NCBI GenBank assembly: GCA_008080565.1
Contig: VIKE01000010.1
Span: 1-64,000 of the forward strand
Length of the DNA stretch: 64,000 bases
Reading direction: 5' to 3'
DNA from: Rhodocyclaceae bacterium
Lineage (GTDB): Bacteria; Pseudomonadota; Gammaproteobacteria; Burkholderiales; Rhodocyclaceae
A program made the translations under genes and the position numbers. The notes beneath the pieces were generated by a model. The model was not told the DNA's origin, did not search any database, and saw only the letters and a list, made by a program, of their open reading frames with translations. Position 1 is the first letter of the stretch; the number at the start of each line of letters is the position of its first letter. Below, one piece after another: positions 11,608-39,374 of the stretch.

Positions 11608-11608
11608 C

Positions 11609-15172: not shown

Positions 15173-15586
15173 GGCTCGAAGCTTCCTCTATGTAAAACAC
15201 GTTCACTCAGTGATAATTATTAACATATTAACGATAATCCGCAAGTGGTTTCTTGCAGTGCTCGTCGAAATAGTTTTCCGGGCCAGAGGGGGCTATAAAA
15301 AACAGCCAAAGACAAGATTCCCCATGGCCACGGTGCTTAGTGATCTTGTTTAGCAGCAAGCATGCCAAAAAATAAATTTTCTATTATTCAAAGGCTTGCA
15401 AAATAGACAGACACAAAAATGGATGGTGCCATGCACCGGTTTGTAGCGAGACGCACCAGAATTGTGAGCATTCACTCACGGTTGGTGGTCGGCCGACAGG
15501 CAGCGGGTTCGCTCCTGCGGCTAGCCAAATTGACGATCAAATAGGACGGTCAGCGCCCATCCGGAAATATCAAACTTGGCGGGCGC
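15173..15586. other. Intergenic stretch without a gene
   Basis: About 414 bp between the AraC gene and the thioesterase gene. It is A/T-rich near 15205-15240 and 15365-15420. It holds an HpaR-like palindrome (15216-15238). I see no tRNA, clear terminator or credible ORF. Confidence 0.5.
15216..15238. promoter_or_regulatory. HpaR-like palindrome upstream of the AraC gene (weaker copy)
   Basis: ATTATTAACATATTAACGATAAT has the TTAACATATTA core seen in the operators near hpaA/hpaR and upstream of the TRAP genes, but its flanks match less well. It lies 44 bp upstream of the AraC start. Confidence 0.35.
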
Positions 15587-24834: not shown

Positions 24835-25224
24835 TTAATTCTTCTTGTAACGGACGTGAATATTGTTCTGCTTCCAGGTGCCGGCCTCGCTGAACTCGAC
24901 GATCTCGAGCGACAGCGCCAGCGTGCGTTTCTGGTAGATCGCAGCAAAGTGTTCACTGATCACCTTGAACAGGTCGTCGCCGATCTTCTTCTTGACCTCG
25001 TCGGAGCGCCCTGCCCCCATTTTGAGGACGGCGTGGACGAAGGCATCATCAACGCTGCCGTCGGCCACGCAGTAGTCGGTCAGGCGAGTCGCCCGCGAGC
25101 GAATGCCACCAATCGGAAGTACCCCACCCTGGGCGATCAACACCTGGTTGGATTTCAGCAACAGGCCCTTGATGTCGGCTTCGGCAGCGAGGTTGTCGGT
25201 GTATTCGTAAATCAGATGGGGCAT
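24835..25224 (-). CDS. hpaF: 5-carboxymethyl-2-hydroxymuconate delta-isomerase
   Basis: A 129-residue protein starting MPHLIYEYTDNL; removal of Met exposes the catalytic N-terminal Pro of the tautomerase superfamily. It has the CHMI length and motifs (LPIGGIRSRATR, HAVLKMGAGR). It isomerises the muconate after the semialdehyde dehydrogenase step. Confidence 0.92.
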   Translation of the reverse strand: MPHLIYEYTDNLAAEADIKGLLLKSNQVLIAQGGVLPIGGIRSRATRLTDYCVADGSVDDAFVHAVLKMGAGRSDEVKKKIGDDLFKVISEHFAAIYQKRTLALSLEIVEFSEAGTWKQNNIHVRYKKN

Positions 25225-25257: not shown

Positions 25258-26154
25258 TCAGGAAACCGGCATTTCGGCGCCGATGCCGCGGGCGGCCAGC
25301 GGAATACCGGCAACCGGCAGGCTGACGACGACCTGGCCGGTGCCCGAGCTTTCGAAGTAGGGGCAGACGATCTCGGCCTTGCCCTGGAACTTGTCCCAGC
25401 CGATGGCGCCGAAGAGCATGGCGGTGTCGTGCATCTTGCCTTCGCCGGTGCAGTACTGGGCGTACTCGGGCAGCATGCGCAGGAAGGTGGCCCACTGGCC
25501 TTCTTCCCAGAGTTGCAGGGCGCGCAGGTCGACCTGTTTGTTGAATTCGCGGCTGATCGAATTGAAACCTTCCTCGACCAGGCGGTTTTCCCAGATTTGG
25601 TGGGACATCGAGCCGCTGGCGACGATGGCGACCTTGCAGTTGCTGCGGGCGACGGCCTTGGCCAATGCTTCGCCGAGAATGCGCGATTCGTCGAGGCTGC
25701 CGAAGGTGCTCCAGCCGGCAATCGAGATGACGCGGATCTTGCCTTCCGGATTCATGTAGCGCATCGGCAGGATGGTGCCGTATTCGAGATCGAGCGAGGC
25801 GACCTGGTGGGCGCGCGTCTTGACGCCCATCGCCGTGGCTTCTTCGGCAATCATCGCGCCGAGTTCCGGGTTGCCGGGAAATTCGTAAGGCAAATCCTGA
25901 ATGAAATGCGGAAACTCGTGGCTGGTGTAATTGCCCTTGTGCACCGCATTGTTGTTGATGTGGTAACCGGCATTGACCAGCCAGTGTGTGTCGAAAACGA
26001 TGAAGGTATCGACACCGAGTTCGACGGCGCGACGACCGACTTCGCGCTCGGCGTCGATCGCCGCCTGACGACAACCGTGGGCCGGCCCGGGCTGCTCGGA
26101 AATAAGCATCGAAGGAACATGCGTGGCCTTGATGGCCATGACGATTTCACCCAT
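25258..26154 (-). CDS. Second class III extradiol dioxygenase, HpaD paralogue
   Basis: The 298-residue protein parallels its upstream neighbour HpaD throughout: ATHVPSMLISEQPGPAHGCRQAAID, FDTHWLVNAGYHIN, LEYGTILPMRYMN, SGSMSH and GEGKMHDTAMLFG, so the metal-binding His/His/Glu positions look intact. It differs in the exposed middle and has an extra C-terminal stretch (AGIPLAARGIGAEMPVS). I read it as an active ring-cleavage enzyme with changed substrate range or properties. It may be a recent in-operon duplication with divergence. Confidence 0.85.
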   Translation of the reverse strand: MGEIVMAIKATHVPSMLISEQPGPAHGCRQAAIDAEREVGRRAVELGVDTFIVFDTHWLVNAGYHINNNAVHKGNYTSHEFPHFIQDLPYEFPGNPELGAMIAEEATAMGVKTRAHQVASLDLEYGTILPMRYMNPEGKIRVISIAGWSTFGSLDESRILGEALAKAVARSNCKVAIVASGSMSHQIWENRLVEEGFNSISREFNKQVDLRALQLWEEGQWATFLRMLPEYAQYCTGEGKMHDTAMLFGAIGWDKFQGKAEIVCPYFESSGTGQVVVSLPVAGIPLAARGIGAEMPVS

Positions 26155-26219
26155 GAATCTGTCTCCTGAAGATTTGTTTGATGGTTTCTCTATGGGGATT
26201 CGGATGGCTTTAAGCTCTT

Positions 26220-27068
26220 TTAAATCGGGAAAACTACGTTGATCTGGCCGGTGCCGGACGAACCGAAGTAAGGCGTCACGACTTCGGCCTTGCCTTCGTA
26301 TTGGTCCCAGCCCAGCACCCCGAGCAGCATCGCCGTGTCGTGCATCATTCCTTCACCGTGACACTTCACGGCGTACTCCGGCAACATGCCGCAGAAGGTT
26401 CTCCAGTCGCCCTTCTGCCACAGGTCGACAACATGGTGATCGACCGTTTCGAGGAACGGGTCCCAGACCTTGTGCATGAACTGCTCGGAAACACCATTCT
26501 GGGCGAAGCGGTGCGACAGAGAGCCGGAGGCCAGCACGGCGACGTTACCGTCGTAGTCTTCCTCGATTGCACGACGCACGGCGCGGCCGAGTTCAGCCGA
26601 ATCCATGAGGTTATGCACGGTGCACAGCGCAGAGACCGAGACGACCTTGAACTGCTTGTCCTCGTTCATGTAGCGCATCGGGACCAGCGTGCCGTATTCC
26701 AGCGCCAGGCTGGTCGCGTCGTGGGCGCGGGTGAACACGCCGGCAGCCGTGGCCTGCTCGGCGATGGCCTTGCCCAGTTCCGGGTTGCCCTGATACGAGA
26801 ACGGCATGTTCTTGATGAAGTGCGGCAGCTCGTTGGAGGTATAGATGCCTTCCCAGCTCGGCGCGCAATTGATGTGGTAGCCGGCATTGACCAGCCAGTG
26901 CGTGTCGAAGACGACGATGGTGTCGACCTTCAGCTCACGCATGCGGCGAGCGATTTCCTTGTGACCGTCAATGGCGGCCTGGCGGCAGCCCTTGTGCGGG
27001 CCATCCTGTTCCGACAGGTACATCGACGGAACGTGGGTGATCTTGGCGGCGAGAACGAGTTTGCCCAT
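26220..27068 (-). CDS. hpaD: 3,4-dihydroxyphenylacetate 2,3-dioxygenase
   Basis: A 282-residue LigB-type extradiol dioxygenase. Blocks such as MGKLVLAAKITHVPSMYLSE, HKEIARRMRELKVDTIVVFDTHW, YTSNELPHFI and LEYGTLVPMRYMNEDK resemble enterobacterial HpaD closely, as I recall it. It cleaves homoprotocatechuate meta to the hydroxyls to give 5-carboxymethyl-2-hydroxymuconate semialdehyde, the substrate of HpaE encoded 3 bases upstream. Confidence 0.94.
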   Translation of the reverse strand: MGKLVLAAKITHVPSMYLSEQDGPHKGCRQAAIDGHKEIARRMRELKVDTIVVFDTHWLVNAGYHINCAPSWEGIYTSNELPHFIKNMPFSYQGNPELGKAIAEQATAAGVFTRAHDATSLALEYGTLVPMRYMNEDKQFKVVSVSALCTVHNLMDSAELGRAVRRAIEEDYDGNVAVLASGSLSHRFAQNGVSEQFMHKVWDPFLETVDHHVVDLWQKGDWRTFCGMLPEYAVKCHGEGMMHDTAMLLGVLGWDQYEGKAEVVTPYFGSSGTGQINVVFPI

Positions 27069-27071
27069 GAT

Positions 27072-28526
27072 TTATACCCCCCAGCGCGGGATATGGTGGC
27101 TACCGTAGGAAACCGCGATGTTCTTGGCTTCGCAGAACACTTCGAAGCTGTAATGGTTGCCTTCACGGCCAGTACCCGATGCCTTGGAGCCGCCGAAGGG
27201 CTGGCGCAGGTCGCGGACGTTCTGGCTGTTGACGAAGGTCATGCCCGATTCGATGGCCTTGGCCAGACGGATGGCGCGGCTGGTGTTGTTGGTCCACAGG
27301 TAGGACGACAGGCCATAGGGCGTGTCGTTGGCGATCTGCACGGCTTCTTCTTCGGTCTTGAAGCGGATGATGCAGGGCACCGGCCCGAAGATTTCTTCCT
27401 GGGCGATACGCATCTTGTTGTCCACATCCGCGAAGACGGTCGGCTGGACCCAGAAACCGTTCTTGAACTTGTCGGCGACGACCGGTGCACCGCCCCCGGC
27501 GACGACCTTGGCGCCTTCCTGCTTGCCGAGTTCGATGTAGTAATTGACCTTGTCCATGTGGCCCTTGGAGATCATCGGGCCGATGATGGTGTTCGGGTCC
27601 ATCGGGTCGCCCACCGTCAGGCGCGAGGCGCGGAGGGCGAAGTCGGCGACGAACTTGTCGTAGATGCCTTCCTGGACAATGATCCGCGAACCGGCGGTGC
27701 ACCGTTCGCCGTTATTAGAGAAGATCATGAATATGGCGGCGTCGAGGGCGCGTTCGTAGTCGGCGTCGTCGAAGATGACGAAGGGCGACTTGCCGCCCAG
27801 TTCCATCGAAAACTTCTTGAGGCCGGCGGCCTTGACGATGCGGTTGCCGGTCATGGTCGAACCGGTGAAGGAGATCGAGCGGACATCCGGGTGCGAGACG
27901 AGCGGCTCGCCGGCTTTGTCGCCAAAGCCATGGACGACGTTGAAGACGCCAGCCGGAATGCCGGCTTCGAGGGCCAGTTCGCCGAGGCGGTTGGCGGTCA
28001 GCGGCGACAGTTCGGACATCTTCATTACGGCCGTGTTGCCGAAAGCCAGGCAGGGCGCGGTCTTCCAGGTGGCGGTCATGAACGGCACGTTCCACGGCGA
28101 GATCAGCGCGCAGACGCCGACCGGCTGCCACAGCGTGTAGTTCAGGTGGCCGGTATCGGAATCGTAGGTTTCGCCGTGCATGTGCTGGATCAGCTCGGCG
28201 AAGTAGTTGAAGTTGTCCGAGGCGCGCGGAATCAGCACGCGCTTGGTCTGGTTGGTGACCTGGCCGCAGTCGGCGGTTTCCATGTCGGCGATCGGCTCGA
28301 CATTGGCGGCGATCAGTTCGCCCAGCTTGCGCACCAGACGGGCGCGTTCCTTGACCGGCGTTGCCGCCCAGCCCGGGAAGGCTGCCTTGGCGGCAGCCAC
28401 TGCGGCGTTGATTTCGTCCGACCCGCCGCTGGCGACAGTGTCGATGACTTCGCCGGTCGCCGGGTTGATGGTTTCGAAGGTTTCCTTGCTGCCGACCTTC
28501 TGGCCATTGATGATGTGTTGAATCAT
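27072..28526 (-). CDS. hpaE: 5-carboxymethyl-2-hydroxymuconate semialdehyde dehydrogenase
   Basis: A 484-residue ALDH with ALISPWNVPFMTATWK (about 145-160), MELGGKSPFVIFDDADYE (about 255) and catalytic Cys in NNGERCTAGSRI (about 290). The 2-hydroxymuconate-semialdehyde-type motifs (YPNFAELIQH equivalent, TLWQPVGVCALISPWN) and the position between hpaG and hpaD support HpaE. Confidence 0.93.
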   Translation of the reverse strand: MIQHIINGQKVGSKETFETINPATGEVIDTVASGGSDEINAAVAAAKAAFPGWAATPVKERARLVRKLGELIAANVEPIADMETADCGQVTNQTKRVLIPRASDNFNYFAELIQHMHGETYDSDTGHLNYTLWQPVGVCALISPWNVPFMTATWKTAPCLAFGNTAVMKMSELSPLTANRLGELALEAGIPAGVFNVVHGFGDKAGEPLVSHPDVRSISFTGSTMTGNRIVKAAGLKKFSMELGGKSPFVIFDDADYERALDAAIFMIFSNNGERCTAGSRIIVQEGIYDKFVADFALRASRLTVGDPMDPNTIIGPMISKGHMDKVNYYIELGKQEGAKVVAGGGAPVVADKFKNGFWVQPTVFADVDNKMRIAQEEIFGPVPCIIRFKTEEEAVQIANDTPYGLSSYLWTNNTSRAIRLAKAIESGMTFVNSQNVRDLRQPFGGSKASGTGREGNHYSFEVFCEAKNIAVSYGSHHIPRWGV

Positions 28527-28542: not shown

Positions 28543-29307
28543 TTATACGGTGGCGAAATAGGTCTGGTCGTCGACGATGGTGTTGATCAGGCAGCAGACG
28601 CCCTCGACTTCGGTCTCGATCACGTCGCCAGCCTTGACGTCAGCGAGGCCTTCCGGCGTGCCAGTCAGGATGATGTCGCCGGGGTTCAGGGTCATGAAAG
28701 ACGTCAGGTATTCGATCAAGGTCGCGATGTCGAAAATCATGTCGGACGTCGTGCCCTGCTGCGTCGTCTTGCCGTTGACCCGGGTCGTCAGCTTGAGTGC
28801 CATCGGGTTCGGCACATCGGCCGCATCGACCAGCCAAGGGCCGAGCGGCGTGCAGCCATCGCGGTTCTTGACGCGCAGGTTCGGGCGGTAATAGTTCTCG
28901 AGGTAATCGCGGATGGCGTAGTCGTTGGCCACGGTGTAGCCAGCCACCATCTCCATCGCCTCGGCCTTGGAAACCTGATAACCGGTCTTGCCAATGACGA
29001 CGGCCAACTCGCACTCGTAGTGCATGTAGGTGGCGTCAGCCGGGCGACGGGTCTTTGCTCGGTGGCCGACGATGGTGTTCGGCCCCTTGAGGAAGGCGAG
29101 CGGCACTTCCGGTGCCTTGAAAGCCAGTTCCTTGGCGTGGTCGGCGTAGTTGAGGCCGAGTGCGAAGACGGCACCGGGAACAACCGGCGGCAGCCAGCTG
29201 ACCTCGGCTTCGTTGAGCCAGCGGCCATCGGCCAGTTGGACACGGCCGTCAGCCGCCTGCGTCACTTCATGGATGGCGCCCTGGAATGCTATGCGACCGC
29301 GCTTCAT
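28543..29307 (-). CDS. hpaG2: HpaG C-terminal-type isomerase/decarboxylase subunit
   Basis: A 254-residue fumarylacetoacetate hydrolase-fold protein: FALGLNYADHAKEL (about 50-63), YECELAVVIGKTGYQVSK with the metal-binding E-x-E (about 105), and GDIILTGTPEGLADVKAGDVIETEVEG near the end. In E. coli HpaG is one fused two-domain protein; here the two halves are separate genes overlapping as ATGA. It decarboxylates or isomerises the 5-oxo-pent-3-ene-1,2,5-tricarboxylate intermediate. Confidence 0.9.
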   Translation of the reverse strand: MKRGRIAFQGAIHEVTQAADGRVQLADGRWLNEAEVSWLPPVVPGAVFALGLNYADHAKELAFKAPEVPLAFLKGPNTIVGHRAKTRRPADATYMHYECELAVVIGKTGYQVSKAEAMEMVAGYTVANDYAIRDYLENYYRPNLRVKNRDGCTPLGPWLVDAADVPNPMALKLTTRVNGKTTQQGTTSDMIFDIATLIEYLTSFMTLNPGDIILTGTPEGLADVKAGDVIETEVEGVCCLINTIVDDQTYFATV

Positions 29308-29948
29308 GCCTGCGCTCCTTGAATCGAGAATTGAATACTGCCGACGCCCTCGGCACTGATCTTGACCTGACTGCCGGCAGCGGCCTGCGGCGCCATGTAG
29401 CTGACGCCGACGAGCAGGACGTCGCCCTGGCTCAGGGTCATGAACTCGGTGACATCGACCAGCAGTTGGGCCGGGTCGCGGACCAGATCGGCCAGCGAAC
29501 GCTGTTCGACAACCTTGCCATCGATCTCAGTCGTAATGACCAGTTTGGCCAGCTCGATCAGCGGCTTGACCGAGCTGATTGGCAGTGAGCCGTCGAAGCA
29601 CTTCTCGCGAATGGCCGGGCGGTAGTAGCTGTCGTGCGGCAGGCTAAGATCGCCGGCCAGCACGACGCCGGCCACGGCGTCCAGCGCCTTGGCGCGGGTC
29701 AGGCGAGCCGCAGCACGGCCCATGACCAGACCGATGGTGGCGCCAACCTCTACCGTTTTTGCCCCTTTTGGCAGGTTGACCGCAGCACCGCAGCAAACCC
29801 GGGTGTTGGCCGGTTTGATGTACATCGCCGGGGCTTTCGGGGCGCCTTTGTAGGGTGCCGCTTCGAGCGCATCGCCAATCTTGCGGAGCGAGGTGTGGTC
29901 GTTGAGGACGACGCCGAAAACCGACCCACTGACTTTCTGTTTAATCAT
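29304..29948 (-). CDS. hpaG1: HpaG N-terminal-type isomerase/decarboxylase subunit
   Basis: A 214-residue FAH-fold protein (SVFGVVLNDHTSLRKIG at the start, MYIKPANTRVCCGAAVNLP, VEVGATIGLVMGRAA and SQGDVLLVGVSYMAP). It matches the N-terminal half of HpaG, which in E. coli is fused to the second half. It begins the catabolic part of the operon, directly after the TRAP permease gene. Confidence 0.88.
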   Translation of the reverse strand: MIKQKVSGSVFGVVLNDHTSLRKIGDALEAAPYKGAPKAPAMYIKPANTRVCCGAAVNLPKGAKTVEVGATIGLVMGRAAARLTRAKALDAVAGVVLAGDLSLPHDSYYRPAIREKCFDGSLPISSVKPLIELAKLVITTEIDGKVVEQRSLADLVRDPAQLLVDVTEFMTLSQGDVLLVGVSYMAPQAAAGSQVKISAEGVGSIQFSIQGAQA

Positions 29949-29963: not shown

Positions 29964-31292
29964 TCAGCCGAGATAATGAACCAGGCCGAGGCACAGGACA
30001 GGGAAGAAAACGAGGCAGATGATGCGGATGAAATCAGAGGCCAGGAAGGGCATGACACCCCAGGCGGTCTCGCTCATCGGCACATCCTTGGCAATCTTGT
30101 TGATGACGTAGAGGTTCATGCCGACCGGCGGATGAACCAGACCGATTTCGACAACCATCAGCGCAAGGATACCGAACCAGATCGATTTGTCCTCGACAGC
30201 CATGCCGAAGAAATCGAGGCCCATCACCATCGGATAGAAAATGGGAATGGTGAGCAGGATCATGGCCAGCGAATCCATCACGCAGCCGAGCAGGATGTAG
30301 ATGACGAGGATGGAAAACAGCACGACCAGAGCGGGCAAACCGCTGTTCTGAACCCAGGTTGCCAGCTCGGTCGGCATTTGCGACAAGGCCAGGCTGGAGT
30401 TGAGCAGGTCGGCGCCGATCAGGACCATGAAGATCATGCCGGTGGCGTGCGCCGTGCCATAGACGCTCTGCAGGAAGTCCTTGGTGCGCATGCCGCCGGA
30501 GACGGCGGCGATGATGCCGCAGGCTGCGGCGCCAATCGAGGCGGCTTCGGTCGGGTTGGCCCAGCCGCCATAGATGCCGACGATGACGACAAGGAAGACG
30601 CAGAGCACGGGAATGATGTTGATCTGGGCCTTGATCATCTGGGCGAACGGCACCTTGACGCCAGCCGGCCCGGCCGACGGATCGCGGCGAACGATGATGG
30701 CAATGACCAGGATGTAGCCCAGCGCAGCGATGATGCCGGGGATGACGGCGGCGACGAAGAGCTTGCCGATTGATTCCTGGGTCAGCACGGCGTAGATGAC
30801 CAGCGGCACCGACGGCGGAATCATGATGCCGAGCGTGCCGGACGCGGCCAGCGTAGCGGTGGAGAGTTTGCCGGAATAACCGGCTGCCTTGAGTTCAGGC
30901 AAAGCGACCTGCCCCATCGTCGCGGCGGTCGCCAGCGAGGAACCGCAGATGGCGCCGAACGCCGCACAGGCTGCCGTCGAGGCCATGGCCAGACCGCCGC
31001 GCCAGTGGCCGATCAGCGTGCCGGCCGCCTTGAACAGCGCCTTGGACAGCCCGCCGTGGGTGGCGAACTGCCCCATCAGGATGAACAGCGGAATGACTGC
31101 CAGGTCGTAATTGGAAACCCGGGCATAGACCAGGTTATTGAGGGTGTACAGCAGGCCTGATGTTTCGCCGCTATTCATGACGAGGTAGATGCTGCCCCCC
31201 GTGATGAACATGGCCATGGTGATATGCACCCGAACGGCGAGCATGCCGAGCAGGCAGGCGAAGCCGATGAGACCGATTGCGGTACCGCTCAT
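29964..31292 (-). CDS. dctM: TRAP transporter large permease
   Basis: The product starts at MSGTAIGLIGFACLLGMLAVRVHI (31292), where ATG overlaps the dctQ stop (ATGA); the ORF-track start at 31403 lies inside dctQ. It has 442 residues with about a dozen hydrophobic segments, including GAICGSSLATAATMG and SGTLGIMIPPSVPLVIYA, DctM marks. It forms the transporter with DctQ and DctP; by position the substrate is 4-hydroxyphenylacetate or a related acid. Confidence 0.93.
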   Translation of the reverse strand: MSGTAIGLIGFACLLGMLAVRVHITMAMFITGGSIYLVMNSGETSGLLYTLNNLVYARVSNYDLAVIPLFILMGQFATHGGLSKALFKAAGTLIGHWRGGLAMASTAACAAFGAICGSSLATAATMGQVALPELKAAGYSGKLSTATLAASGTLGIMIPPSVPLVIYAVLTQESIGKLFVAAVIPGIIAALGYILVIAIIVRRDPSAGPAGVKVPFAQMIKAQINIIPVLCVFLVVIVGIYGGWANPTEAASIGAAACGIIAAVSGGMRTKDFLQSVYGTAHATGMIFMVLIGADLLNSSLALSQMPTELATWVQNSGLPALVVLFSILVIYILLGCVMDSLAMILLTIPIFYPMVMGLDFFGMAVEDKSIWFGILALMVVEIGLVHPPVGMNLYVINKIAKDVPMSETAWGVMPFLASDFIRIICLVFFPVLCLGLVHYLG

Positions 31293-31831
31293 TTGTGGGC
31301 TCCGGGAATGTTCTTGGTCGGGTGAAAGTGGGCGTAGGCCCGGTAGGCTGCGCAGATCATCATGAGAAACAGGCCAGGCACGAGCAGCGCCGTCGGAATC
31401 CACAACGGCAGCGAAACCAGTGTCGTGACTTCCTCCGATTCATGCGTGGCGATGGCCGACAGGATGGTGCGCCAGACGAGAATGCCCGAAACGATGGCGA
31501 AGAGCACTTCGGCCATGCCATCGATCGGACGTTTCAGGGAATCACGCATGTTTTCAGTGAAGAAATCGACCTTGATATGTTCGCCGAGCAGCGTGCAGTA
31601 CGGCAGGAAAGCAGTCGCCGCGACCGCCGTGCCGGCCTGCATCAACTCGATATCGCCATTGACCGAGCCAAAGCCCAGCTTGCGGCCGATGATCGAGACC
31701 AGCGACATGGCAATCAGGGCGATGAACAATACACCGCCTGAAATCGCCATCGTCTTGCCGGCCATGATCAGGTAGTGCTCGACCCTGTCGTGCTCTACCA
31801 GTTCATGGGGTATCCCCATCGGATCTTGCAT
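31289..31831 (-). CDS. dctQ: TRAP transporter small permease
   Basis: A 180-residue protein with four hydrophobic segments (about 28-48, 65-85, 108-128, 145-163) and the DctQ pattern AFLPYCTLLGEHIKVDFF between helices 2 and 3. It is encoded between the solute-binding protein and the large permease. Confidence 0.92.
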   Translation of the reverse strand: MQDPMGIPHELVEHDRVEHYLIMAGKTMAISGGVLFIALIAMSLVSIIGRKLGFGSVNGDIELMQAGTAVAATAFLPYCTLLGEHIKVDFFTENMRDSLKRPIDGMAEVLFAIVSGILVWRTILSAIATHESEEVTTLVSLPLWIPTALLVPGLFLMMICAAYRAYAHFHPTKNIPGAHK

Positions 31832-31855: not shown

Positions 31856-32731
31856 TTATTTGTTGGTGCCGGTCAGTTCGCGGGCCGAAGCGATCAGCTT
31901 CTTGCCGTCCAGACCTTTTTCGCCAACCTGCTTGGCCCATTCGTCCTCGACACTGGCCGTCGCCTGCTTCATGGCCGCCACCTGGGTGGCGCTGAAAGTG
32001 GTGATCTTGTTGCCCTGAGCAGCGATGCGCTTGCGGGTATCGGCCGCAAAGTCGTCGAACATGGCGCCGAATTTGCCGACCATGACTTCGCCGGTCGTCT
32101 TGTCGACGATGGCCTTGAGGTCAGCCGGCAGGCCGTCGTACTTGGCCTTGTTCATGAGTACGGTGAGCACGGTGGCGGTCGGGTGAGCGACGCCGGCAGC
32201 CGGTTGGGCGTGGAATTTGGTGACTTCGGAAAGCTTGGTCGGGAAAACCAGTTCCCAGGCGCCGAGCGAACCGTCAACGACGCCCTTGGCGATAGCTTCG
32301 GTGACCTGGGCCGGCGGCATGGCGACTGGCGAGCCACCAAGGGCAGCCAGGGTCTTGGCACCGACGCGGGTCGAGGTGCGCAACTTCATGCCGGCAAAAC
32401 CGGTCAGGCCGACGATTTCCTTCTTGGCGGTATGTACCGGGAAGCGACCGGCCGAGTAACCCGGGCCGGTCCACACCACGTCGGCGACGCCGTTCTTGAC
32501 CTGATCAACCAGTTGGGCCGGCGTGCCGCCGAGCTGCATGGCCGGGTAGAACTGGCACTTGATGCGGCCATTCGACTGCTTGCCCATCTCGTCACACCAC
32601 GGCTGCAGGACTTTTTGCTGGGTCGGCGCAGCGGAAGGCAGGAAGTGCGCGATCTTCAAGGTCACTTCCTGGGCAGCGGCCGGCAGCGCAACGGCCAAGG
32701 CAGCAACGGCAATCAGGTTACGGTAGTTCAT
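31856..32731 (-). CDS. dctP: TRAP transporter solute-binding protein, DctP type
   Basis: A 291-residue protein with a signal peptide (NLIAVAALAVALPAAAQE) and a mature start KIAHFLPSAAPTQQKVLQPW that is typical of DctP proteins. The ligand-binding Arg of the family is plausible in MKLRTSTRVGAKTLAALGG. First gene of the TRAP-hpa operon; two HpaR-like palindromes lie 40-85 bp upstream. Confidence 0.92.
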   Translation of the reverse strand: MNYRNLIAVAALAVALPAAAQEVTLKIAHFLPSAAPTQQKVLQPWCDEMGKQSNGRIKCQFYPAMQLGGTPAQLVDQVKNGVADVVWTGPGYSAGRFPVHTAKKEIVGLTGFAGMKLRTSTRVGAKTLAALGGSPVAMPPAQVTEAIAKGVVDGSLGAWELVFPTKLSEVTKFHAQPAAGVAHPTATVLTVLMNKAKYDGLPADLKAIVDKTTGEVMVGKFGAMFDDFAADTRKRIAAQGNKITTFSATQVAAMKQATASVEDEWAKQVGEKGLDGKKLIASARELTGTNK

Positions 32732-32770
32732 TCGACATCTCCTCGATGAGTGTGGGTGAGCCCACGTTTA

Positions 32771-32787
32771 TTAACATGTTAGTGATT
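32771..32787. promoter_or_regulatory. HpaR-like operator, TRAP-hpa operon, proximal half
   Basis: TTAACATGTTAGTGATT lies 40 bp upstream of the dctP start. It shares the AACATRTTAGTGATT core with the site between hpaA and hpaR read on its other strand. Position overlaps where a promoter should lie, which fits repression. Confidence 0.65.
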
Positions 32788-32793: not shown

Positions 32794-32815
32794 AATCACT
32801 ACTATGTTAGTGAGT
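32794..32815. promoter_or_regulatory. HpaR-like operator, TRAP-hpa operon, distal half
   Basis: AATCACTACTATGTTAGTGAGT is a palindrome (ATCACTA-N6-TAGTGAG). Centre-to-centre it is about 25 bp from the proximal site, so two MarR-type dimers could bind on similar faces of the helix. Confidence 0.65.
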
Positions 32816-32904: not shown

Positions 32905-33966
32905 TCAGACGCGCTTGAACAGCGGGCTGCGCACCTGTTGTGCATCGGCGGCCGAGAAGAATTTTTCGGTGTAGATGTCGCGCTCGAACAGGCGGCCCTG
33001 CATGAGCGTCGTGATGCAGGCGTCGATCATGACCGGAGGGCCGCACAGGTAGGCCTTGTTGCCGCGGAAGTCGTTGTCGAAATGGGCCTTGGCCGCCTCG
33101 TGAACGAACCCGCGGAAACCCGTCCACCCACTGTCGACCGGCTCGTCGTTGAGGGCCGGGACGTAGGTGAAGTTGGCGTGCTTGGCCGCCAGATCGACGA
33201 ATTCCTGATGATAGTAAAGCTCACCCTGGTTGCGCGCGCCGTAGACCAGCGTGATTGGCTGTTCGCTGCCCTCCTCCAGCAGATCGAGCAGCATCGAGCG
33301 CGGGCTGGACAGACCGGAACCGCCAGCCATGAACAGCGACGGGACATTGGCCGACTTGTGCACGAAGAAACGACCGTAGGGGCCTGACACGGTGATCTTG
33401 TCGCCGACCTTGAGTTCGTTGTGAATCCAGGCCGTACCGGCGCCGCCGGGGACGATGCGGATATTCAGTTCGATCTCGTTGCCGGTCGACGGCACGTTGG
33501 CCAGCGAGAAGGCGCGATGGCCGAGGCCGTTCGGCAGGTTCATGTTGATGTACTGGCCGGCCTGGAAGTCGAGCACTTCGTCGTTGTCGAGCTTGAGCCA
33601 GATGCCTTTGATGGTCGGCGTCAGGTTCTCGATGCGGCTGACCACACCGGGGAAATCGCGCACGGGAATATCACGCGCATCCTCGTCGGTTTCCATCTCG
33701 ACTTCGATGGTCATGTCGGATTCGAGCCTGGCGCAGCAGGCCAGCGCCAGCCCTTCCTCGCGCTCGAAATCCATCAGGGCAAAACTGGAAGAACTGCCGT
33801 GGTCAACTTCCCCATCGGTGATACATACCTTGCAGGTGGCGCAATAGCCCTGGCCGCAGGCGTGCGGCAGGTAGATGCCGGCGCGCAGCGCGGCATCAAG
33901 GATGGTCTGGCCGTCTTCGACCTCGATGGTCCTGCCAAGGGGCTCGATACTCAGTTCGTAGCTCAT
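32905..33966 (-). CDS. dmpP: Phenol hydroxylase-type reductase component (FAD, 2Fe-2S)
   Basis: A 353-residue reductase: plant-type 2Fe-2S domain with CGQGYCATCKVC (about 36-47) and a distal Cys near 77, FAD motif HRAFSLANVPS (about 145-155) and NAD-binding GGSGLSSPRSMLLDL (about 225). It passes electrons from NADH to the diiron hydroxylase. It is the last gene of the dmp-type operon. Confidence 0.93.
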   Translation of the reverse strand: MSYELSIEPLGRTIEVEDGQTILDAALRAGIYLPHACGQGYCATCKVCITDGEVDHGSSSSFALMDFEREEGLALACCARLESDMTIEVEMETDEDARDIPVRDFPGVVSRIENLTPTIKGIWLKLDNDEVLDFQAGQYINMNLPNGLGHRAFSLANVPSTGNEIELNIRIVPGGAGTAWIHNELKVGDKITVSGPYGRFFVHKSANVPSLFMAGGSGLSSPRSMLLDLLEEGSEQPITLVYGARNQGELYYHQEFVDLAAKHANFTYVPALNDEPVDSGWTGFRGFVHEAAKAHFDNDFRGNKAYLCGPPVMIDACITTLMQGRLFERDIYTEKFFSAADAQQVRSPLFKRV

Positions 33967-34006
33967 TTTTTTATCCTGTTCTTGTCTGGTGGGCTGATGC
34001 CTCTTT

Positions 34007-34093
34007 AACCCCCCCTGCCCCCCTTGTCAGGGGGGAGTCGGCTTATCGTGACCGGGCAGCCCCTCCCCTGACAAGGGGAGGCTGGGAGGGGTT
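34007..34093. repeat. REP/MITE-like palindromic element
   Basis: An 87-bp element with outer ends AACCCC and GGGGTT. Inside are two hairpins, CCCCCC-TTGTCA-GGGGGG and CTCCCC-TGACAA-GGGGAG, that are inverted copies of each other. It sits inside the dmp-type operon, between the components O and P, where it may stabilise or attenuate the mRNA. Similar G/C-rich palindromes are common in Proteobacteria. Confidence 0.75.
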
Positions 34094-34115
34094 GCCTTTC
34101 GCCTTCAACGGCCAA

Positions 34116-34478
34116 TCAGTACCCCGTACCGGCAATGCCATCCAGACCCGGCGTCCGGAAACGGATCAGGTCCTTGTGGCCGATGCCGTTCTCTTTGAGG
34201 CTCTTGTTGCGATCCGGCGTGAAGGGCGTGTTGCCGTTCTGCCAGACGACCGTGTTCCAGTCGATCTGCTTCCAGTCCGGGTGATAGCTGAAGCAGTCGG
34301 TCATGTACTGGTCGACGATCACCGAGAACGGCGTTTCCGGCGGCAGTGCGAGCACGAAGGGGCGCGAGAACATGCGGTGACGCTCCCAGTTTACGTACAG
34401 CAACTGTCTGCCCTTGTAGTTCTCGAGGGCATCGCTCGATTTGAACTCGTACGGCGCGAGGGTTTTCAACATCGTCAT
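34116..34478 (-). CDS. dmpO: Phenol hydroxylase-type component O (small hydroxylase subunit)
   Basis: The real start is MTMLKTLAPYEFKSSDALENY (34478, Shine-Dalgarno AGGAG), giving 120 residues; the ORF-track start reads back into dmpN. The sequence, with NYKGRQLLYVNWERHRMFSRPFV, matches the gamma subunit of the phenol hydroxylase oxygenase. It forms the (LNO)2 hydroxylase with the L and N proteins. Confidence 0.92.
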   Translation of the reverse strand: MTMLKTLAPYEFKSSDALENYKGRQLLYVNWERHRMFSRPFVLALPPETPFSVIVDQYMTDCFSYHPDWKQIDWNTVVWQNGNTPFTPDRNKSLKENGIGHKDLIRFRTPGLDGIAGTGY

Positions 34479-34488
34479 TGCTGTCTCC

Positions 34489-36033
34489 TTAGTTCTTGGT
34501 GGCCTGTTCGCGCCAGGCTGCGAAGTTCTTCTGATCGTCCGAACCATTGAAGTCACCGGTCGCCCGCTTGTCGAGCCTCCAGTAGTCGAGCATCTGGCTG
34601 CCCGGCTGGTAGTCCGGCGCATTGACATCGACGCCATCCGGCTCGCAGTTGCCCTGCAGGGCCTGGTGCGAGGAGATGAAGGTCTGGACATACTTCTCCG
34701 GCTCGTTGTCGAAGATTTCCTTGCAGTGGTCGGAACAGGTGTGGAACTTCTCGCCCTTGTACACCGACTCGCGGAAGCACATTTCCATCGGGTCGCCCGG
34801 CTCGTTGAACTTCATGGTGCTGACACAGACCTGGCAGTTCATCGGCTGCGTCTTGTTGTTGAAGCGATTGCCGGCCTTTTCCTGGGCATCGAGATGCTCG
34901 AGCACCGGACGGTAGTACTTGTCGAAGGTGTTGGGATACTTCTCGGACAGCCAGTCCATTTCGTCGGGCGACGGAATCCAGGTGTGGAACGGGGTCGCGT
35001 CGGGCTTCATATAGAAACCTATCCACGACTGGTGGGTGACGTGTTCCTTTTCCTCGATGGTCTGGCCGAAGCACTTGGGAATGGTGATGCCGTAACGGGC
35101 GAGGTCCTTGAACAGCGAGCCGCCGTTGTCCTCGACGTACATTTCCCAGGCTTCCTTGAAGCTCATGATGCGCTTGGGCAGCATGTAATCCATCATCATG
35201 CCGACAGAAGCCAGCTTGCGCGTGCCGCGCCAGGTCCATTTGTCGATCCAGCGCTGGACGATGGGCAGGTTGTCCGGGTCCTGTTCGAGCATGAACTTGA
35301 TGCATTCGAGGCCGAGCGTCATGTGCCGCGCTTCGTCGGACTGGGCCGAGAAGCCGACGGTCATCGCCGCCATGTCGCCGTTGTAGGCGGCGCCGGAGAT
35401 GAAGGGGACGAACAGGATGTTGGTCAGCACGTATTCGAAGGCGAAGCCGATGGCGACCATGAATTCGAAGGGGCCGGCGGTGATCGCGTCGTCGAAGAAG
35501 GACTTGCCGTCGGACAGGTACCACATGCGGGATTGCTGATGGGCGAACTCGTCCATCCCGTTGTAGTACTTGTTGTAGTTGGAGATCGAGTGGATCTGCG
35601 TCTGGAAGTGACGGTACTCATCGACCGCCTGCATCTGACAGGCAACACGCGGACCGGCGCCGTTCATCTGCCGGCCCATCATCGAGAAGCCGCGGGCGGC
35701 CATCAGCTCGAGCGGCGGCGTCGAGCCGAGGAAGAGCTTCAAGACATTGATGTAGCGGGCGTCGGTGACCGAGAGGTGGCCGTTGTTCTGGTTGAAACCG
35801 TCGAGAATGGCGTACAGCTTGCGCTCCTTCTCGGACTGGTACTTCCAGTAGGCGTCCATGGTCAGGCGGAAGGGGTCTTCCCACTTGTCCCAATCGTGAA
35901 TCTTGATGCCTTCATAGGTGGTCTGCGGGAAAATCTCTTCCGTCTTGTGGAAGGTCGGCTCCCAGGCCAGATCGCGGGTCATCAGGCTGTAGCGCTCTTT
36001 GAGGCCGAGCTTCTTGGCAACTTTCATATCCAT
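34489..36033 (-). CDS. dmpN: Phenol hydroxylase-type large subunit with diiron site
   Basis: A 514-residue protein, the usual DmpN length. Two E-x-x-H ligand pairs of the carboxylate-bridged diiron centre are visible: VDEYRHFQ (about 135-142) and QSDEARHMTLG (about 228-238). It hydroxylates phenolic rings ortho to the OH. Because the neighbours degrade homoprotocatechuate and no HpaBC is seen, its likely substrate is 4-hydroxyphenylacetate; this is inference, since DmpN-type enzymes normally prefer phenol and cresols. Confidence 0.93.
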   Translation of the reverse strand: MDMKVAKKLGLKERYSLMTRDLAWEPTFHKTEEIFPQTTYEGIKIHDWDKWEDPFRLTMDAYWKYQSEKERKLYAILDGFNQNNGHLSVTDARYINVLKLFLGSTPPLELMAARGFSMMGRQMNGAGPRVACQMQAVDEYRHFQTQIHSISNYNKYYNGMDEFAHQQSRMWYLSDGKSFFDDAITAGPFEFMVAIGFAFEYVLTNILFVPFISGAAYNGDMAAMTVGFSAQSDEARHMTLGLECIKFMLEQDPDNLPIVQRWIDKWTWRGTRKLASVGMMMDYMLPKRIMSFKEAWEMYVEDNGGSLFKDLARYGITIPKCFGQTIEEKEHVTHQSWIGFYMKPDATPFHTWIPSPDEMDWLSEKYPNTFDKYYRPVLEHLDAQEKAGNRFNNKTQPMNCQVCVSTMKFNEPGDPMEMCFRESVYKGEKFHTCSDHCKEIFDNEPEKYVQTFISSHQALQGNCEPDGVDVNAPDYQPGSQMLDYWRLDKRATGDFNGSDDQKNFAAWREQATKN

Positions 36034-36058
36034 GGTGTTTGCTCCTTGGCGGCTGGAA

Positions 36059-36328
36059 TCAGGAATTCCAGCTCAGGGTGAATTCGTCGTCGGTCTCGTC
36101 GAGGTGGCCGGAGATGGTGATCAGGTGCAGTTGCAGCTCCTGCAGGTCGAAGCTGCGGCCCATCTTCTCCTCGACGGTCTCGCGCTTGATGACCAGGCGG
36201 TTCGGCACGTCGATCTTCACCATGGATGGCTGATCGTCGACCATCGCCCCCGGGTTGTCGTCGAGAATGGCTTCGACGATGCAGCGGGATTCGTCATTTT
36301 TCTGGAATGCGATAAAAGCGTTTGACAT
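36059..36328 (-). CDS. dmpM: Phenol hydroxylase-type coupling/effector protein M
   Basis: The start MSNAFIAFQKNDESRC (36328) gives 89 residues, the usual length of the cofactor-less MmoB/DmpM effector; the ORF-track start extends into dmpL. It is required for efficient coupling of reductase and hydroxylase. The gene lies between L and N as in the classical dmp operon. Confidence 0.92.
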   Translation of the reverse strand: MSNAFIAFQKNDESRCIVEAILDDNPGAMVDDQPSMVKIDVPNRLVIKRETVEEKMGRSFDLQELQLHLITISGHLDETDDEFTLSWNS

Positions 36329-36338
36329 GCAGCTTCCT

Positions 36339-37331
36339 TTACAGGGCGACACCGGCCTTGGCGGCGCGGGCATTCAGGTTCTGGACCAATTCGTCCATGA
36401 TGGAATCAGCCTCAGCACCGAAGGCCAGCTTGGCGACCGGCTTCAGGGCGACGACGGCACGGTCGCGCCAGTGCTTGATCCACTCGGCCAGTTGCGCCTT
36501 GTTTTCGGCGTTGTCGGCAGCGGTGGCCTTGAGCACGGAATCCATCCACTTCGTCGTTTCGCCGAACCATTCGCGCTGGAAGCGGGTCAGCATCGAGAAG
36601 ACCGGGCCGTAGGCGGCGTTGAGCTTTTCATTGAAGCGCTCGTAGATCAGCGGATAGAGCAGGCCTTCGAGGGCGAAGTCCTGGGCGACCAGGACCTGAT
36701 ACCAGTCCTTTTCGACCATCAGATCTTCGACGTAATGGCGCAGCTCGTTCCATTCGGCGCCGTCCATCCAGGCCGTCTTGGCGTCTGCCAGGGCGTCGAG
36801 ATCGTTGAAGGCCATGCCGAGACGGGTCACGTACTGGGCAACGCCGAGCTGATCCATCGAGGCGTAGCAGGCCGCCTGCGAAATGGCGATGCCGTAGCCG
36901 TAGGAGGAAACGTAAGCCTTGTTGAGATTGGAGCCCCAGGCGACGTGGCGCAGCGGCAGGAAAACCTTGAGCGCTTCGTCCTTGCCGGCAGCCGGATAGG
37001 CGGCAGCCAGACCGAGTTCATCGACCAGATCGAAATCGCCTTCGGCGATTTCCTGCATCCGGCCGCGCGCCAGCGTCCAGGCGCCGTAATAGTACTGGCG
37101 CGGGTCTTTCAGCGCGTACCAGTCCTTCATCGTGATCTTGGTCCGCTTGGTATCGAAGATGTCGTAGTGCGGCTCCCAGGTCGGACGGTAGTGATAGTTC
37201 TCGACCGGCTGCAGGTCCATGGTCGCTTCGAGATAACGCGAAGCCGGCTTGTCGGCGCCCATGCGGCGGGCCAGGTGGCCAAAGGTCTGGCGCAGCGGTG
37301 TGATGCTGACCGTCCTCAAATCAATTGCCAT
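36339..37331 (-). CDS. dmpL: Phenol hydroxylase-type beta subunit L
   Basis: A 330-residue protein starting MAIDLRTVSITPLRQTFGHLARRMG, with length and pattern of DmpL (RYLEATMDLQPVENYHYRPTWEP near 35-55). It has the same overall helical fold as the N subunit but no diiron ligands. It is structural in the (LNO)2 hydroxylase. Confidence 0.93.
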   Translation of the reverse strand: MAIDLRTVSITPLRQTFGHLARRMGADKPASRYLEATMDLQPVENYHYRPTWEPHYDIFDTKRTKITMKDWYALKDPRQYYYGAWTLARGRMQEIAEGDFDLVDELGLAAAYPAAGKDEALKVFLPLRHVAWGSNLNKAYVSSYGYGIAISQAACYASMDQLGVAQYVTRLGMAFNDLDALADAKTAWMDGAEWNELRHYVEDLMVEKDWYQVLVAQDFALEGLLYPLIYERFNEKLNAAYGPVFSMLTRFQREWFGETTKWMDSVLKATAADNAENKAQLAEWIKHWRDRAVVALKPVAKLAFGAEADSIMDELVQNLNARAAKAGVAL

Positions 37332-37377
37332 GCTTGTCTCCTTGTTTGCAGGCCATTTCCACGGTCAACCGGGCTTG

Positions 37378-37414
37378 CTACGGTCAACCGTAAAAAATGG
37401 CCAAAATTGAAATG
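37378..37414 (+). repeat. Dispersed repeat, copy D, with an adjacent partial copy
   Basis: CTACGGTCAACCG, then TAAAAAAT and GGCCAAAATTGAAATG. A truncated second copy (CCACGGTCAACCGGG, 37359-37373) lies immediately before. Both are between dmpL and dmpK, inside the operon. Confidence 0.78.
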
Positions 37415-37415
37415 C

Positions 37416-37682
37416 CTAGCGAAAGCGCTGGTGCGTTGCCTGATGCAGATTCCAGTGAAAATCGGCGTCCGATGCCTCGGCATCGAGCGGGGCAGCCTTT
37501 TCGGTGGTCAGCAGCTCAACCTGATTGGCCGCGCAGAACTCATCAAATGCCGCCTTGGGCATGACCAGCTCGGCCGCCACATCCGGATCGCCGATGGCGA
37601 ACTCGAATTCGATCAAACCGTTGGGCAGGGTGCGCATGACGCGAACGAATTTGCGCGTGATGTCGAAATTGCTTTCTGCCAT
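37416..37682 (-). CDS. dmpK: Phenol hydroxylase-type assembly protein K
   Basis: An 88-residue protein, DmpK-like in size and position (first gene of the K-L-M-N-O-P order). DmpK is thought to help assemble iron into the apo-hydroxylase. The start ATG has GAGGAGTGAG upstream, and a perfect 12-bp palindrome AACGGCGCCGTT lies at 37700-37711, just before it. Confidence 0.9.
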   Translation of the reverse strand: MAESNFDITRKFVRVMRTLPNGLIEFEFAIGDPDVAAELVMPKAAFDEFCAANQVELLTTEKAAPLDAEASDADFHWNLHQATHQRFR

Positions 37683-37740: not shown

Positions 37741-37766
37741 CCATTCGCTAAGATGTTAATGAATGG
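37741..37766. promoter_or_regulatory. HpaR-like operator upstream of the dmp-type operon
   Basis: CCATTCGCTAAGATGTTAATGAATGG is a palindrome with outer arms CCATTC/GAATGG and inner CTAA/TTAA, sharing the CTAANATGTTARTGA pattern of the other sites. It is 59 bp before dmpK. Confidence 0.62.
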
Positions 37767-37826: not shown

Positions 37827-38753
37827 TCAAGCCTGACCGGTCAGCCGGAATTGACTGGGCGGCGTCCCGGTGCGCTTGGCGAAAAAGCGCGAGAAGTAGG
37901 CGGGATCGACAAAGCCGAGCTGGTAGCTGATTTCGCTGACCGGCACGGCAGAGTAACGAAGCAGGCGCCGCGCCTCCTGGAGCAGGCGTTCGTGCACTAC
38001 CTCTTTGGACGGCAGATTGGCCATGCGCCGGCAAATATCATTGAGCCGCGCTTCGGTCACTGACAGGCGGCCAGCGTATTCGGTCAGCGTCAGATGGTCG
38101 CGGAAATGCGCTTCAACGAGATCACAGAAGTTGAGGAAGAGCCGTAAGTCCTCACTACGCTCCGAACGCTGTGCAGTTGCCGGTTCGCGTGCCAACAGCA
38201 GGCGGCTCAGATGAATGAAGGCGCACTCGCCCAGCGCCAGCAACAAGGCAGAATGACCCTTGGCATCCTTGTCGAACTCGCCTTGCAGCAGTTCAACCGT
38301 TTGCAGCAGCGCGGCAAAATCAGTGGCACTCCCGGCCGGCAGGCTGCTCAACTCGAAAAAGACCGGCTCGCGCAACAAGGCATCCGGCCACTGCCCCGGC
38401 ATTTCGCGATACCAGCTGCGCACGACCTCCTGGCGCACTGTCAGCACGTGGCCGTCGGTGTCTTCCTCGGAATAGAAGGAGTGCGGAATGGTCGGCGGCG
38501 TGAAGATCAGCAAGGGCGCATCACCGCCATAGACCTGGCCGTCCAGGCTCAGGCGGACACTGCCACGGACCAGCAGGTGAATCTGATAAAAGCAGTAGTG
38601 CCGATGCGGCGGCGTATTGCGGCCGAAGAAATCGGCCAGCCGACCGAAGGTCTCGTAGTGGATTTCGCATTCCGGATCGCGCTGGTCGTAGACCCGCCCG
38701 ATGTGGATGTCCGGTATGGCCTGCAGCGGCGCTGAGTTCATTCCACTTTCCAA
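37827..38753 (-). CDS. hpaA: HpaA-like AraC-family activator of homoprotocatechuate genes
   Basis: The 308-residue protein has an N-terminal cupin-like sensor (FGRLADFFGRNTPPHRHYCFYQIHLL, PTIPHSFYSEEDTDGHVLTVR) and a C-terminal double HTH (LTEYAGRLSVTEARLNDICRRMAN; VSEISYQLGFVDPAYFSRFFAKRTG). These motifs match the E. coli HpaA activator, which responds to 4-hydroxyphenylacetate. MNSAPLQ four codons in is an alternative start. It is divergent from hpaR. Confidence 0.9.
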   Translation of the reverse strand: MESGMNSAPLQAIPDIHIGRVYDQRDPECEIHYETFGRLADFFGRNTPPHRHYCFYQIHLLVRGSVRLSLDGQVYGGDAPLLIFTPPTIPHSFYSEEDTDGHVLTVRQEVVRSWYREMPGQWPDALLREPVFFELSSLPAGSATDFAALLQTVELLQGEFDKDAKGHSALLLALGECAFIHLSRLLLAREPATAQRSERSEDLRLFLNFCDLVEAHFRDHLTLTEYAGRLSVTEARLNDICRRMANLPSKEVVHERLLQEARRLLRYSAVPVSEISYQLGFVDPAYFSRFFAKRTGTPPSQFRLTGQA

Positions 38754-38803: not shown

Positions 38804-38825
38804 AATCACTAACATATTAGCCAGT
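38804..38825. promoter_or_regulatory. HpaR-like operator between hpaA and hpaR
   Basis: AATCACTAACATATTAGCCAGT carries CTAACATATTAG, a near-perfect palindrome. It lies 51 bp from the hpaA start and 70 bp before the hpaR start, so it could control both, including autoregulation of hpaR. Confidence 0.65.
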
Positions 38826-38894: not shown

Positions 38895-39374
38895 ATGTCG
38901 CGCAAGCTAGCTTACAGAAACCTGCCGCAACTTTTCCTGAAAGCCCGGGAAGAATTACTCTGCCACTTCCGCCCGATCATTTCGCACTTCGGACTGACCG
39001 AACAGCAGTGGCGGATTTTGCGTACGCTCAGCGAAATGGAGCAACTGGAGCCGCGGGAAATCTGCGAGCACTGCCACATTCTGAGCCCGAGTATGACCGG
39101 CGTCCTGTCGCGCATGGAAGAAATGAATTTGGTCACCCGCGTGCGCATGCCGGAAGACCAGCGCCGGGTCATCGTCCGCCTGACGCCGAAGAGCGAACAA
39201 CTGGTGTCTGAACTCGGCCCGCTGATCGTCGAACAATACAAAATCATCGAACAGGCCTTTGGCCCGGAACTGATCAAGGAACTCTACGACGTGATGGACC
39301 GGGTGATTGCGGCCGAACGCGGCCCGATTGCCCGAGTCGCCCTGCCGCCCAAGAAGGACTGGTCGGCAATTTGA
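38895..39374 (+). CDS. hpaR: HpaR, MarR-family repressor of homoprotocatechuate catabolism
   Basis: The start is MSRKLAYRNLPQLFLKAREELL (38895), giving 159 residues; the longer ORF lacks the family N-terminus. The winged helix is visible around residues 45-105 (HFGLTEQQWRILRTLSEMEQLEPREICEHCHILSPSMTGVLSRMEEMNLVTR). HpaR in E. coli represses the meta-cleavage operon and is relieved by 4-hydroxyphenylacetate or homoprotocatechuate. The palindromic motif near this gene recurs before each hpa-related operon. Confidence 0.92.
   Translation: MSRKLAYRNLPQLFLKAREELLCHFRPIISHFGLTEQQWRILRTLSEMEQLEPREICEHCHILSPSMTGVLSRMEEMNLVTRVRMPEDQRRVIVRLTPKSEQLVSELGPLIVEQYKIIEQAFGPELIKELYDVMDRVIAAERGPIARVALPPKKDWSAI

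Follow-up and report, generated by a model that had tools for sequence, protein, structure and literature searches.

A phenol-hydroxylase-type diiron monooxygenase as the probable 4-hydroxyphenylacetate 3-hydroxylase of a Rhodocyclaceae hpa island

To our knowledge, the described bacterial enzymes for the first step of 4-hydroxyphenylacetate (4-HPA) catabolism use flavin and no iron. HpaBC (TIGR02309/TIGR02310) is a two-component flavin enzyme, and the Acinetobacter-type enzyme C1/C2 (PDB 2JBR) is an acyl-CoA-dehydrogenase-like flavin enzyme. In E. coli, repression by HpaR is relieved by 4-HPA. Diiron monooxygenases form a separate family, typified by DmpKLMNOP and the Pseudomonas stutzeri OX1 phenol hydroxylase. 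Among the related toluene monooxygenases, position I100 of T4MO (V106 of TOM) has been engineered to accept tyrosol and phenylethanol, and with small residues at this position of T4MO (I100S/G/A) the hydroxylation of p-tyrosol increases 34- to 36-fold (PMC3962191).

We propose, with a probability of about 0.8, that a diiron set of this family (KLMNOP) in a Rhodocyclaceae genome is specialised for hydroxylating 4-HPA at C3 to homoprotocatechuate (3,4-dihydroxyphenylacetate), a substrate and regiochemistry that we infer from genomic context and comparison. We favour this reading because of the set's linkage to hpa genes, the absence of HpaB, the HpaR-like sites, the distinct clade of its N subunit tied to hpaR and hpaA, the co-occurrence of HpaD, the mutual exclusion with flavin enzymes, a Thr at the active-site gate and the separate phenol clusters of the host. 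The same evidence supports the original prediction that a diiron enzyme stands in place of HpaBC. On the best reading, KLMNOP is a non-orthologous replacement of both HpaBC and C1/C2, sharing with each the proposed reaction, and with HpaBC the proposed pathway position and predicted HpaR control as well, while being unrelated to them in protein family and cofactor.

The gene set is complete and embedded among hpa genes. The window, a 64,000-nucleotide stretch of contig VIKE01000010.1, comes from a Dechloromonas-like Rhodocyclaceae bacterium with a 5.2 Mb draft genome of 152 contigs that is 96% complete; its estimated contamination of 6% was counted against the best explanation. Pfam profile searches identified six intact genes in the conserved phenol-hydroxylase order on the minus strand, from 37682 to 32905: K, a DmpK-like subunit (37416..37682; Phenol_hyd_sub PF06099, 85.5 bits); L, the beta-type hydroxylase subunit (36339..37331; Phenol_Hydrox PF02332, 178.4 bits); M, the effector or regulatory protein (36059..36328; MmoB_DmpM PF02406, 101.5 bits); N, the diiron catalytic subunit (34489..36033; PF02332, 227.3 bits, plus YHS); O, a DmpO-like subunit (34116..34478; Phenol_monoox PF04663, 85.9 bits); and P, an NADH reductase with 2Fe-2S, FAD and NAD domains (32905..33966; Fer2, FAD_binding_6 and NAD_binding_1). 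Gene order and domains, diiron ligands and the NADH reductase place the set among phenol-hydroxylase-type multicomponent monooxygenases, and N matches the crystallised OX1 subunit PhN (2INN) with 682 bits. It shares with DmpKLMNOP and the OX1 enzyme all six genes, their order, the ligands, the effector and the reductase. Unlike in the dmp cluster, neither a DmpQ ferredoxin gene nor a DmpB-type catechol 2,3-dioxygenase gene lies 3' of P, where a TRAP-hpa operon is found instead, and the neighbours include no XylR/DmpR sigma-54 activator but the AraC-type hpaA and MarR-type hpaR. The original prediction had read the locus this way, as a full set between hpa regulators and TRAP-hpa operon with no dmpB-type gene following.

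The flanking genes encode regulators, transport and the lower pathway. On one side are hpaA, an activator gene of 4-HPA catabolism (37827..38741, minus strand; TIGR02297, 310.9 bits, cut-off 274.65), and the divergent repressor gene hpaR (38895..39374, plus strand; MarR domain; TIGR02337, 139.6 bits, cut-off 121.2). On the other side, all on the minus strand, TRAP carrier genes come first: dctP (solute-binding protein, 31856..32731; NF037995, above cut-off), dctQ (small permease, 31289..31831; PF04290) and dctM (large permease, 29964..31292; TIGR00786, above cut-off; PF06808). They precede hpaG1 and hpaG2, the N- and C-terminal subunits of HpaG (29304..29948; TIGR02305, 216.8 bits, just below the cut-off of 228.65; and 28543..29307; TIGR02303, 369.7 bits, cut-off 276.4), the CHMS dehydrogenase gene hpaE (27072..28526; TIGR02299, 719.5 bits, cut-off 638.35), and two copies of the homoprotocatechuate 2,3-dioxygenase gene hpaD (26220..27068 and 25258..26154; TIGR02298, 489 and 445 bits, cut-off 316). 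The operon continues with the CHM isomerase gene hpaF (24835..25224; PF02962, 171.6 bits), the hydratase gene hpaH (24010..24813; TIGR02312, 463 bits, cut-off 351.5), the aldolase gene hpaI (23197..24000; TIGR02311, 351.5 bits, just below the cut-off of 368.8), and a succinate-semialdehyde dehydrogenase (SSADH) gene for the last pathway step (21722..23176; TIGR01780, 747 bits, cut-off 646).

HpaR-like sites suggest common control of the island. The strict pattern, a CTAA/TTAA-N4-TTAR palindrome, occurs five times in the genome and only within the window, and a reversed-pattern control gave zero matches genome-wide. One site lies upstream of K (37745..37761, minus strand; TTAA-CATC-TTAG), as originally predicted; the others are in the hpaR/hpaA intergenic region (38807..38823, plus), upstream of dctP (32796..32812 and 32768..32784, minus) and upstream of an AraC-type gene of an aromatic amine dehydrogenase (AADH) set (15218..15234, plus; TTAA-CATA-TTAA), the last with counterparts at two other loci (L117 and L123). 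Their form agrees with that of the footprinted site, TTAA-N4-TTAA (PMC7180172). The K promoter region has such a putative operator, and KLMNOP falls in the predicted HpaR regulon. Similar sites number 17 in the window against 3.6 +/- 2.1 in shuffles. Among relatives, the site upstream of K is kept in 23 of 25 near-clade loci; near loci have 116 matches in 471 kb, and far loci have 5 in 938 kb.

The AADH set (10619-15172), overlooked by the original prediction, lies on the minus strand. It comprises an AraC-type regulator gene (14180..15172), the AADH large subunit (12785..13945; AADH matches at 280 bits, methylamine dehydrogenase structures at 149), a MauE-like protein with an approximate 5' end (12226..12768; 68% identical to MauE of locus L014), a MauD-like thioredoxin-fold protein (11609..12229; 79% identical to MauD of locus L004) and the small, TTQ-bearing subunit (11065..11676; AADH matches at 200 bits, MADH chains at 107-161), whose listed start is possibly too far upstream. 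We rejected a methylamine dehydrogenase assignment for 12785-13945, as the scores favour AADH.

This neighbour brings up an alternative that we consider improbable: KLMNOP would act on the amine, turning tyramine into dopamine, or on the aldehyde, 4-hydroxyphenylacetaldehyde, and the route to homoprotocatechuate would be the dopamine branch. The AADH set does share the predicted HpaR regulon with KLMNOP, and in seven clade loci an AADH set also lies downstream of KLMNOP. AADH, however, resides in the periplasm whereas the NADH-dependent diiron enzyme is cytoplasmic, and dopamine would therefore need re-export. Moreover, in at least five relatives, as in the window, KLMNOP adjoins the TRAP-hpa operon, and HpaR is a 4-HPA-responsive regulator (PMC2791445).

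The N subunit defines a clade of its own that travels with hpa genes. Its 32 sequences group with SH-aLRT 100 on a long stem (0.64) apart from phenol hydroxylases, with an identity gap of 82-95% against at most 70%. The clade is widespread, in Dechloromonas/Azonexus, Zoogloea, Leeia and others, and 29 of 77 genomes of the host genus carry it at 92-100% identity. With genes called by codon usage in this GC-rich DNA, hpaA adjoins the clade set in 25 of 27 loci and hpaR in at least 20 of 27, several contigs ending early. HpaD was present in all 15 clade genomes tested versus 25 of 300 genomes of the order. Clade sets without adjoining hpaR/hpaA or HpaR sites occur in Leeia (L015/L125) and in G220 (L127), the latter beside a PaaX-type regulator; we counted these against the main reading. 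The phenol hydroxylases outside the clade include two paralogues from the host's own genome, likewise overlooked before: one cluster has a ferredoxin, a catechol 2,3-dioxygenase and an XylR_N/Sigma54 regulator (L119), the other a catechol 2,3-dioxygenase (L120).

Flavin-type 4-HPA hydroxylases appear to be replaced. The originally noted lack of hpaB in the window extends to the whole 96% complete draft, which has no match to HpaB (PF03241/PF11794). Nor was an orthologue of C2 found in the host genome (best match 26% identity, to a protein whose nearest structure is Rv3094c) or in diiron-clade genomes (best 31%). Two host candidates were rejected: the best PF08028 match (L130) is an ordinary acyl-CoA dehydrogenase, and a flavin monooxygenase (L131) is nearest the Rv3094c structure, with only 85 bits to HPAH C2. 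In the order-wide sample, the 25 HpaD genomes divide without overlap into 6 with the diiron clade, 5 with C2 orthologues, some of them near the hpa operon, and 7 with PF03241 proteins, among others. The hypergeometric p for exclusion is about 0.01 if all PF03241 proteins are counted as hydroxylases and about 0.07 with the stronger ones only, and kinship weakens both values. Counting against the main reading, a PF03241 protein occurs in 5 of about 20 clade genomes; the three that were scored all fall short of an HpaB cut-off, but that of G014 (649 bits, cut-off 885) may be a genuine hydroxylase of 4-HPA or of chlorophenol.

The active site keeps the diiron machinery and differs at its gate. The ligands E109, E139, H142, E200, E234 and H237 of N are intact in all 32 aligned clade members. 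Known pocket positions match those of phenol hydroxylases with one clade-specific exception, the gate residue (T105 of the host N), where all 32 clade members have Thr and all 57 other sequences have Ile, Val or Phe. This position corresponds to T4MO I100 and TOM V106; whereas the changes there are laboratory variants of toluene monooxygenases, the clade's Thr is natural and fixed. About 50 positions of N are clade-specific overall, including the lysines K273, K343 and K408 (32/32 versus 0/57), candidates that may bind the substrate carboxylate.

Likeness to phenol hydroxylases also permits a reading that we regard as quite unlikely: KLMNOP would be a common phenol or alkylphenol hydroxylase of broad substrate range, located by chance among the hpa genes, and homoprotocatechuate would come from another enzyme. 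Gene order and ligands are the same, the pocket is nearly so, and related diiron enzymes take many phenols. Yet the separate long-stem clade, its fixed gate change, the HpaR-like sites and the missing ferredoxin and catechol 2,3-dioxygenase all argue otherwise, as do the other phenol hydroxylase clusters in a genome where no flavin-type 4-HPA hydroxylase was found. Least probable of all, given that phenylacetate is usually degraded by the paa CoA route and that the predicted regulon includes a tyramine-type AADH, which suggests a compound hydroxylated in the para position, is another phenylacetate as substrate (mainly 3-HPA, or phenylacetate hydroxylated twice) with homoprotocatechuate still the product, even though E. 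coli HpaBC also takes 3-HPA (PMC3053370) and toluene monooxygenases can hydroxylate one ring twice (PMC3962191).

A diiron 4-HPA 3-hydroxylase would likely constitute a third, independently evolved enzyme type for this step, a fixed and widespread clade derived from phenol hydroxylases with a natural gate Thr. We found no prior report of such an enzyme in the open-access literature searched. If true, it would be a clear non-orthologous replacement within a textbook pathway and a hydrophobic-pocket diiron monooxygenase adapted to a charged substrate; 'phenol hydroxylase' annotations in many Rhodocyclales genomes would need correcting, and the enzyme would offer a natural starting point for hydroxytyrosol and catechol-acid synthesis.

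With KLMNOP as 4-HPA hydroxylase, the island may work as follows. Periplasmic AADH would convert tyramine-type amines to the aldehyde and a dehydrogenase would yield 4-HPA, with the TRAP carrier probably taking up external 4-HPA in addition. P would relay electrons from NADH to the diiron centre of (L,N,O)2, M would serve as effector, and HpaD, E, F, G, H and I with SSADH would then lead from homoprotocatechuate to pyruvate and succinate. HpaR and HpaA would control the island, presumably as repressor and activator. We rejected the aldehyde dehydrogenase at 21722 as a 4-hydroxyphenylacetaldehyde dehydrogenase, since it is the SSADH (TIGR01780); the one at 1940, though below every family cut-off shown, is the better candidate.

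The phenol-hydroxylase-type genes K, L, M, N, O and P (37682 to 32905, minus strand) encode, with roughly 80% probability, the 4-hydroxyphenylacetate (4-HPA) 3-hydroxylase of the homoprotocatechuate pathway. We infer this reaction from gene context, regulation, distribution and the gate residue. The minus strand carries, in order from 38741 to 21722, hpaA, K to P, dctP, dctQ, dctM, hpaG1, hpaG2, hpaE, hpaD, a second hpaD, hpaF, hpaH, hpaI and a succinate-semialdehyde dehydrogenase gene, and hpaR (38895–39374) diverges from hpaA. The original prediction of a complete set between the hpa regulators and the TRAP-hpa operon agrees with this gene order and was exact in its coordinates. K to P also contain the six Pfam domains typical of phenol-hydroxylase-type multicomponent monooxygenases, and N, the diiron catalytic subunit, is a full-length relative of the crystallised PhN of P. 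stutzeri OX1 (682 bits); the enzyme belongs to this family. HpaA, HpaR, HpaE, both HpaD proteins, HpaG2 and HpaH exceed NCBIfam cut-offs, HpaG1 and HpaI fall slightly under them, and HpaF clearly matches CHMI. The tandem hpaD pair (25258–27068) recurs in many relatives, and the second copy may be specialised.

HpaR-like palindromes mark the island. One copy of the 17-bp pattern CTAA/TTAA-N4-TTAR lies at hpaR/hpaA, one precedes K as originally noted, two precede dctP, and a fifth, at 15218, precedes an AraC gene. These are its only five sites genome-wide, and a reversed-pattern control found none. Footprinted HpaR sites in Yersinia read TTAA-N4-TTAA, resembling E. coli W (PMC7180172), and E. 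coli HpaR is relieved by 4-HPA, according to work cited in PMC2791445. Of 25 related loci, 23 share the predicted site upstream of K, and palindrome matches number 116 per 471 kb in related loci versus 5 per 938 kb at ordinary phenol hydroxylase loci.

N sequences of this kind form a distinct clade that in most loci travels with hpa regulators. Among the best 80 loci found across 84,980 species genomes, 27 share 82–95% identity and the next ones 70% or less. Of these 27, 25 have hpaA beside or near the set and at least 20 have hpaR, several contigs ending early. In a maximum-likelihood tree, 32 near sequences group as a single clade (SH-aLRT 100, stem 0.64) that excludes the paralogues from this genome. 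The genus shows a bimodal distribution, with 29 of 77 genomes matching at 92–100% and all other matches at or below 74%. Two clade sets lack hpaR and hpaA, one (L127, genome G220, 7244–8095) adjoining a PaaX-type regulator and the other (L125, Leeia oryzae) near AstE/AspA-like and solute-binding protein genes.

No recognisable flavin-type 4-HPA hydroxylase is present in the source genome, a 5.2 Mb draft (152 contigs, 96% complete, 6% contamination). The expected absence of hpaB held genome-wide, with neither PF03241 nor PF11794 found in the draft. The best match to an Acinetobacter-type C2 oxygenase, represented by a protein from a relative's hpa locus (685 bits to PDB 2JBR), reaches only 26%. 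Further diiron hydroxylase genes comprise two sets on contig C98 and pieces on C18 and C150. One C98 set has a divergent XylR/sigma-54 activator, a 2Fe-2S ferredoxin and catechol 2,3-dioxygenase; the other adjoins catechol 2,3-dioxygenase. Hence the genome seems to hold conventional phenol hydroxylases besides KLMNOP, and because the bin is partly contaminated, C98 might come from a different organism.

Among the genomes sampled from the order, those with HpaD carry at most one of the three hydroxylase types. HpaD is present in 15 of 15 clade genomes tested versus 25 of 300 genomes sampled across the order. Those 25 include six with the diiron clade, five with C2 orthologues and seven with a PF03241 protein, with zero overlap (hypergeometric chance about 0.01, or about 0.07 with weak PF03241 proteins discounted, shared ancestry ignored in both). 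The other seven (L138–L140, L142, L144–L146) have none of the three, so additional routes to homoprotocatechuate may exist.

An amine dehydrogenase branch accompanies the pathway. A complete TTQ aromatic amine dehydrogenase (AADH) set, with large and small subunits, MauE, MauD and cytochrome c (10619–13945, minus strand), follows its AraC-type regulator gene (14180–15172, minus strand). Its subunits score 280 and 200 bits to solved AADH structures, well over methylamine dehydrogenase. The set lies downstream of P in seven relatives (L002, L003, L004, L008, L012, L014, L026), and in some cases the hpa operon comes after it on one contig (L117–L118, L123–L124). Tyramine-type amines probably enter the hpa pathway through this AADH set, which has an HpaR-like site at 15218. 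AADH and hpa genes form a tyramine-to-succinate island in which KLMNOP is the sole candidate for ring hydroxylation. AADH is a periplasmic enzyme and acids are the usual cargo of TRAP importers, so a cytoplasmic hydroxylase would most naturally act on the acid. Beside the AADH set, 8550–9941 and 4407–8514 encode a DUF1329 protein, kept there in relatives, a 542-aa protein matching no NCBIfam family, and an RND/MMPL-type transporter.

The active site of N differs from phenol hydroxylases at one known pocket position. All six diiron ligands match those of phenol hydroxylases, as do the known ToMO pocket positions that were checked, save one: residue 105, which corresponds to T4MO I100 and TOM V106. 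It is Thr in 32 of 32 clade members, and the 57 other sequences all have Ile, Val or Phe there. The alcohol corresponding to 4-HPA is p-tyrosol. T4MO I100S/G/A variants hydroxylate p-tyrosol to hydroxytyrosol 34- to 36-fold better (PMC3962191). Three lysines, K273, K343 and K408, are also clade-specific and are candidates for holding the substrate carboxylate.

A 2024 review defines 4-HPA 3-hydroxylases as two-component flavin enzymes (PMC10816480), and we found no report of a diiron one in the open-access full texts searched. Excerpts of the Dechloromonas aromatica genome paper describe toluene- and phenol-type clusters, then catechol genes, and no KLMNOP-hpa arrangement (PMC2907700).

The 149-bp O–P gap (33967–34115) contains a G+C-rich imperfect inverted repeat, with arms CCCCTTGTCAGGGG at 34020 and CCCCTGACAAGGGG at 34065. 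Loci in other genomes lack this repeat, which resembles a short REP- or MITE-type insertion, and at loci L095 and L096 the gap measures about 65 bp. An unrelated surface polysaccharide region starts with CDP-sugar genes at 42745–45802 (glucose-1-phosphate cytidylyltransferase, CDP-glucose 4,6-dehydratase, RfbH-like).
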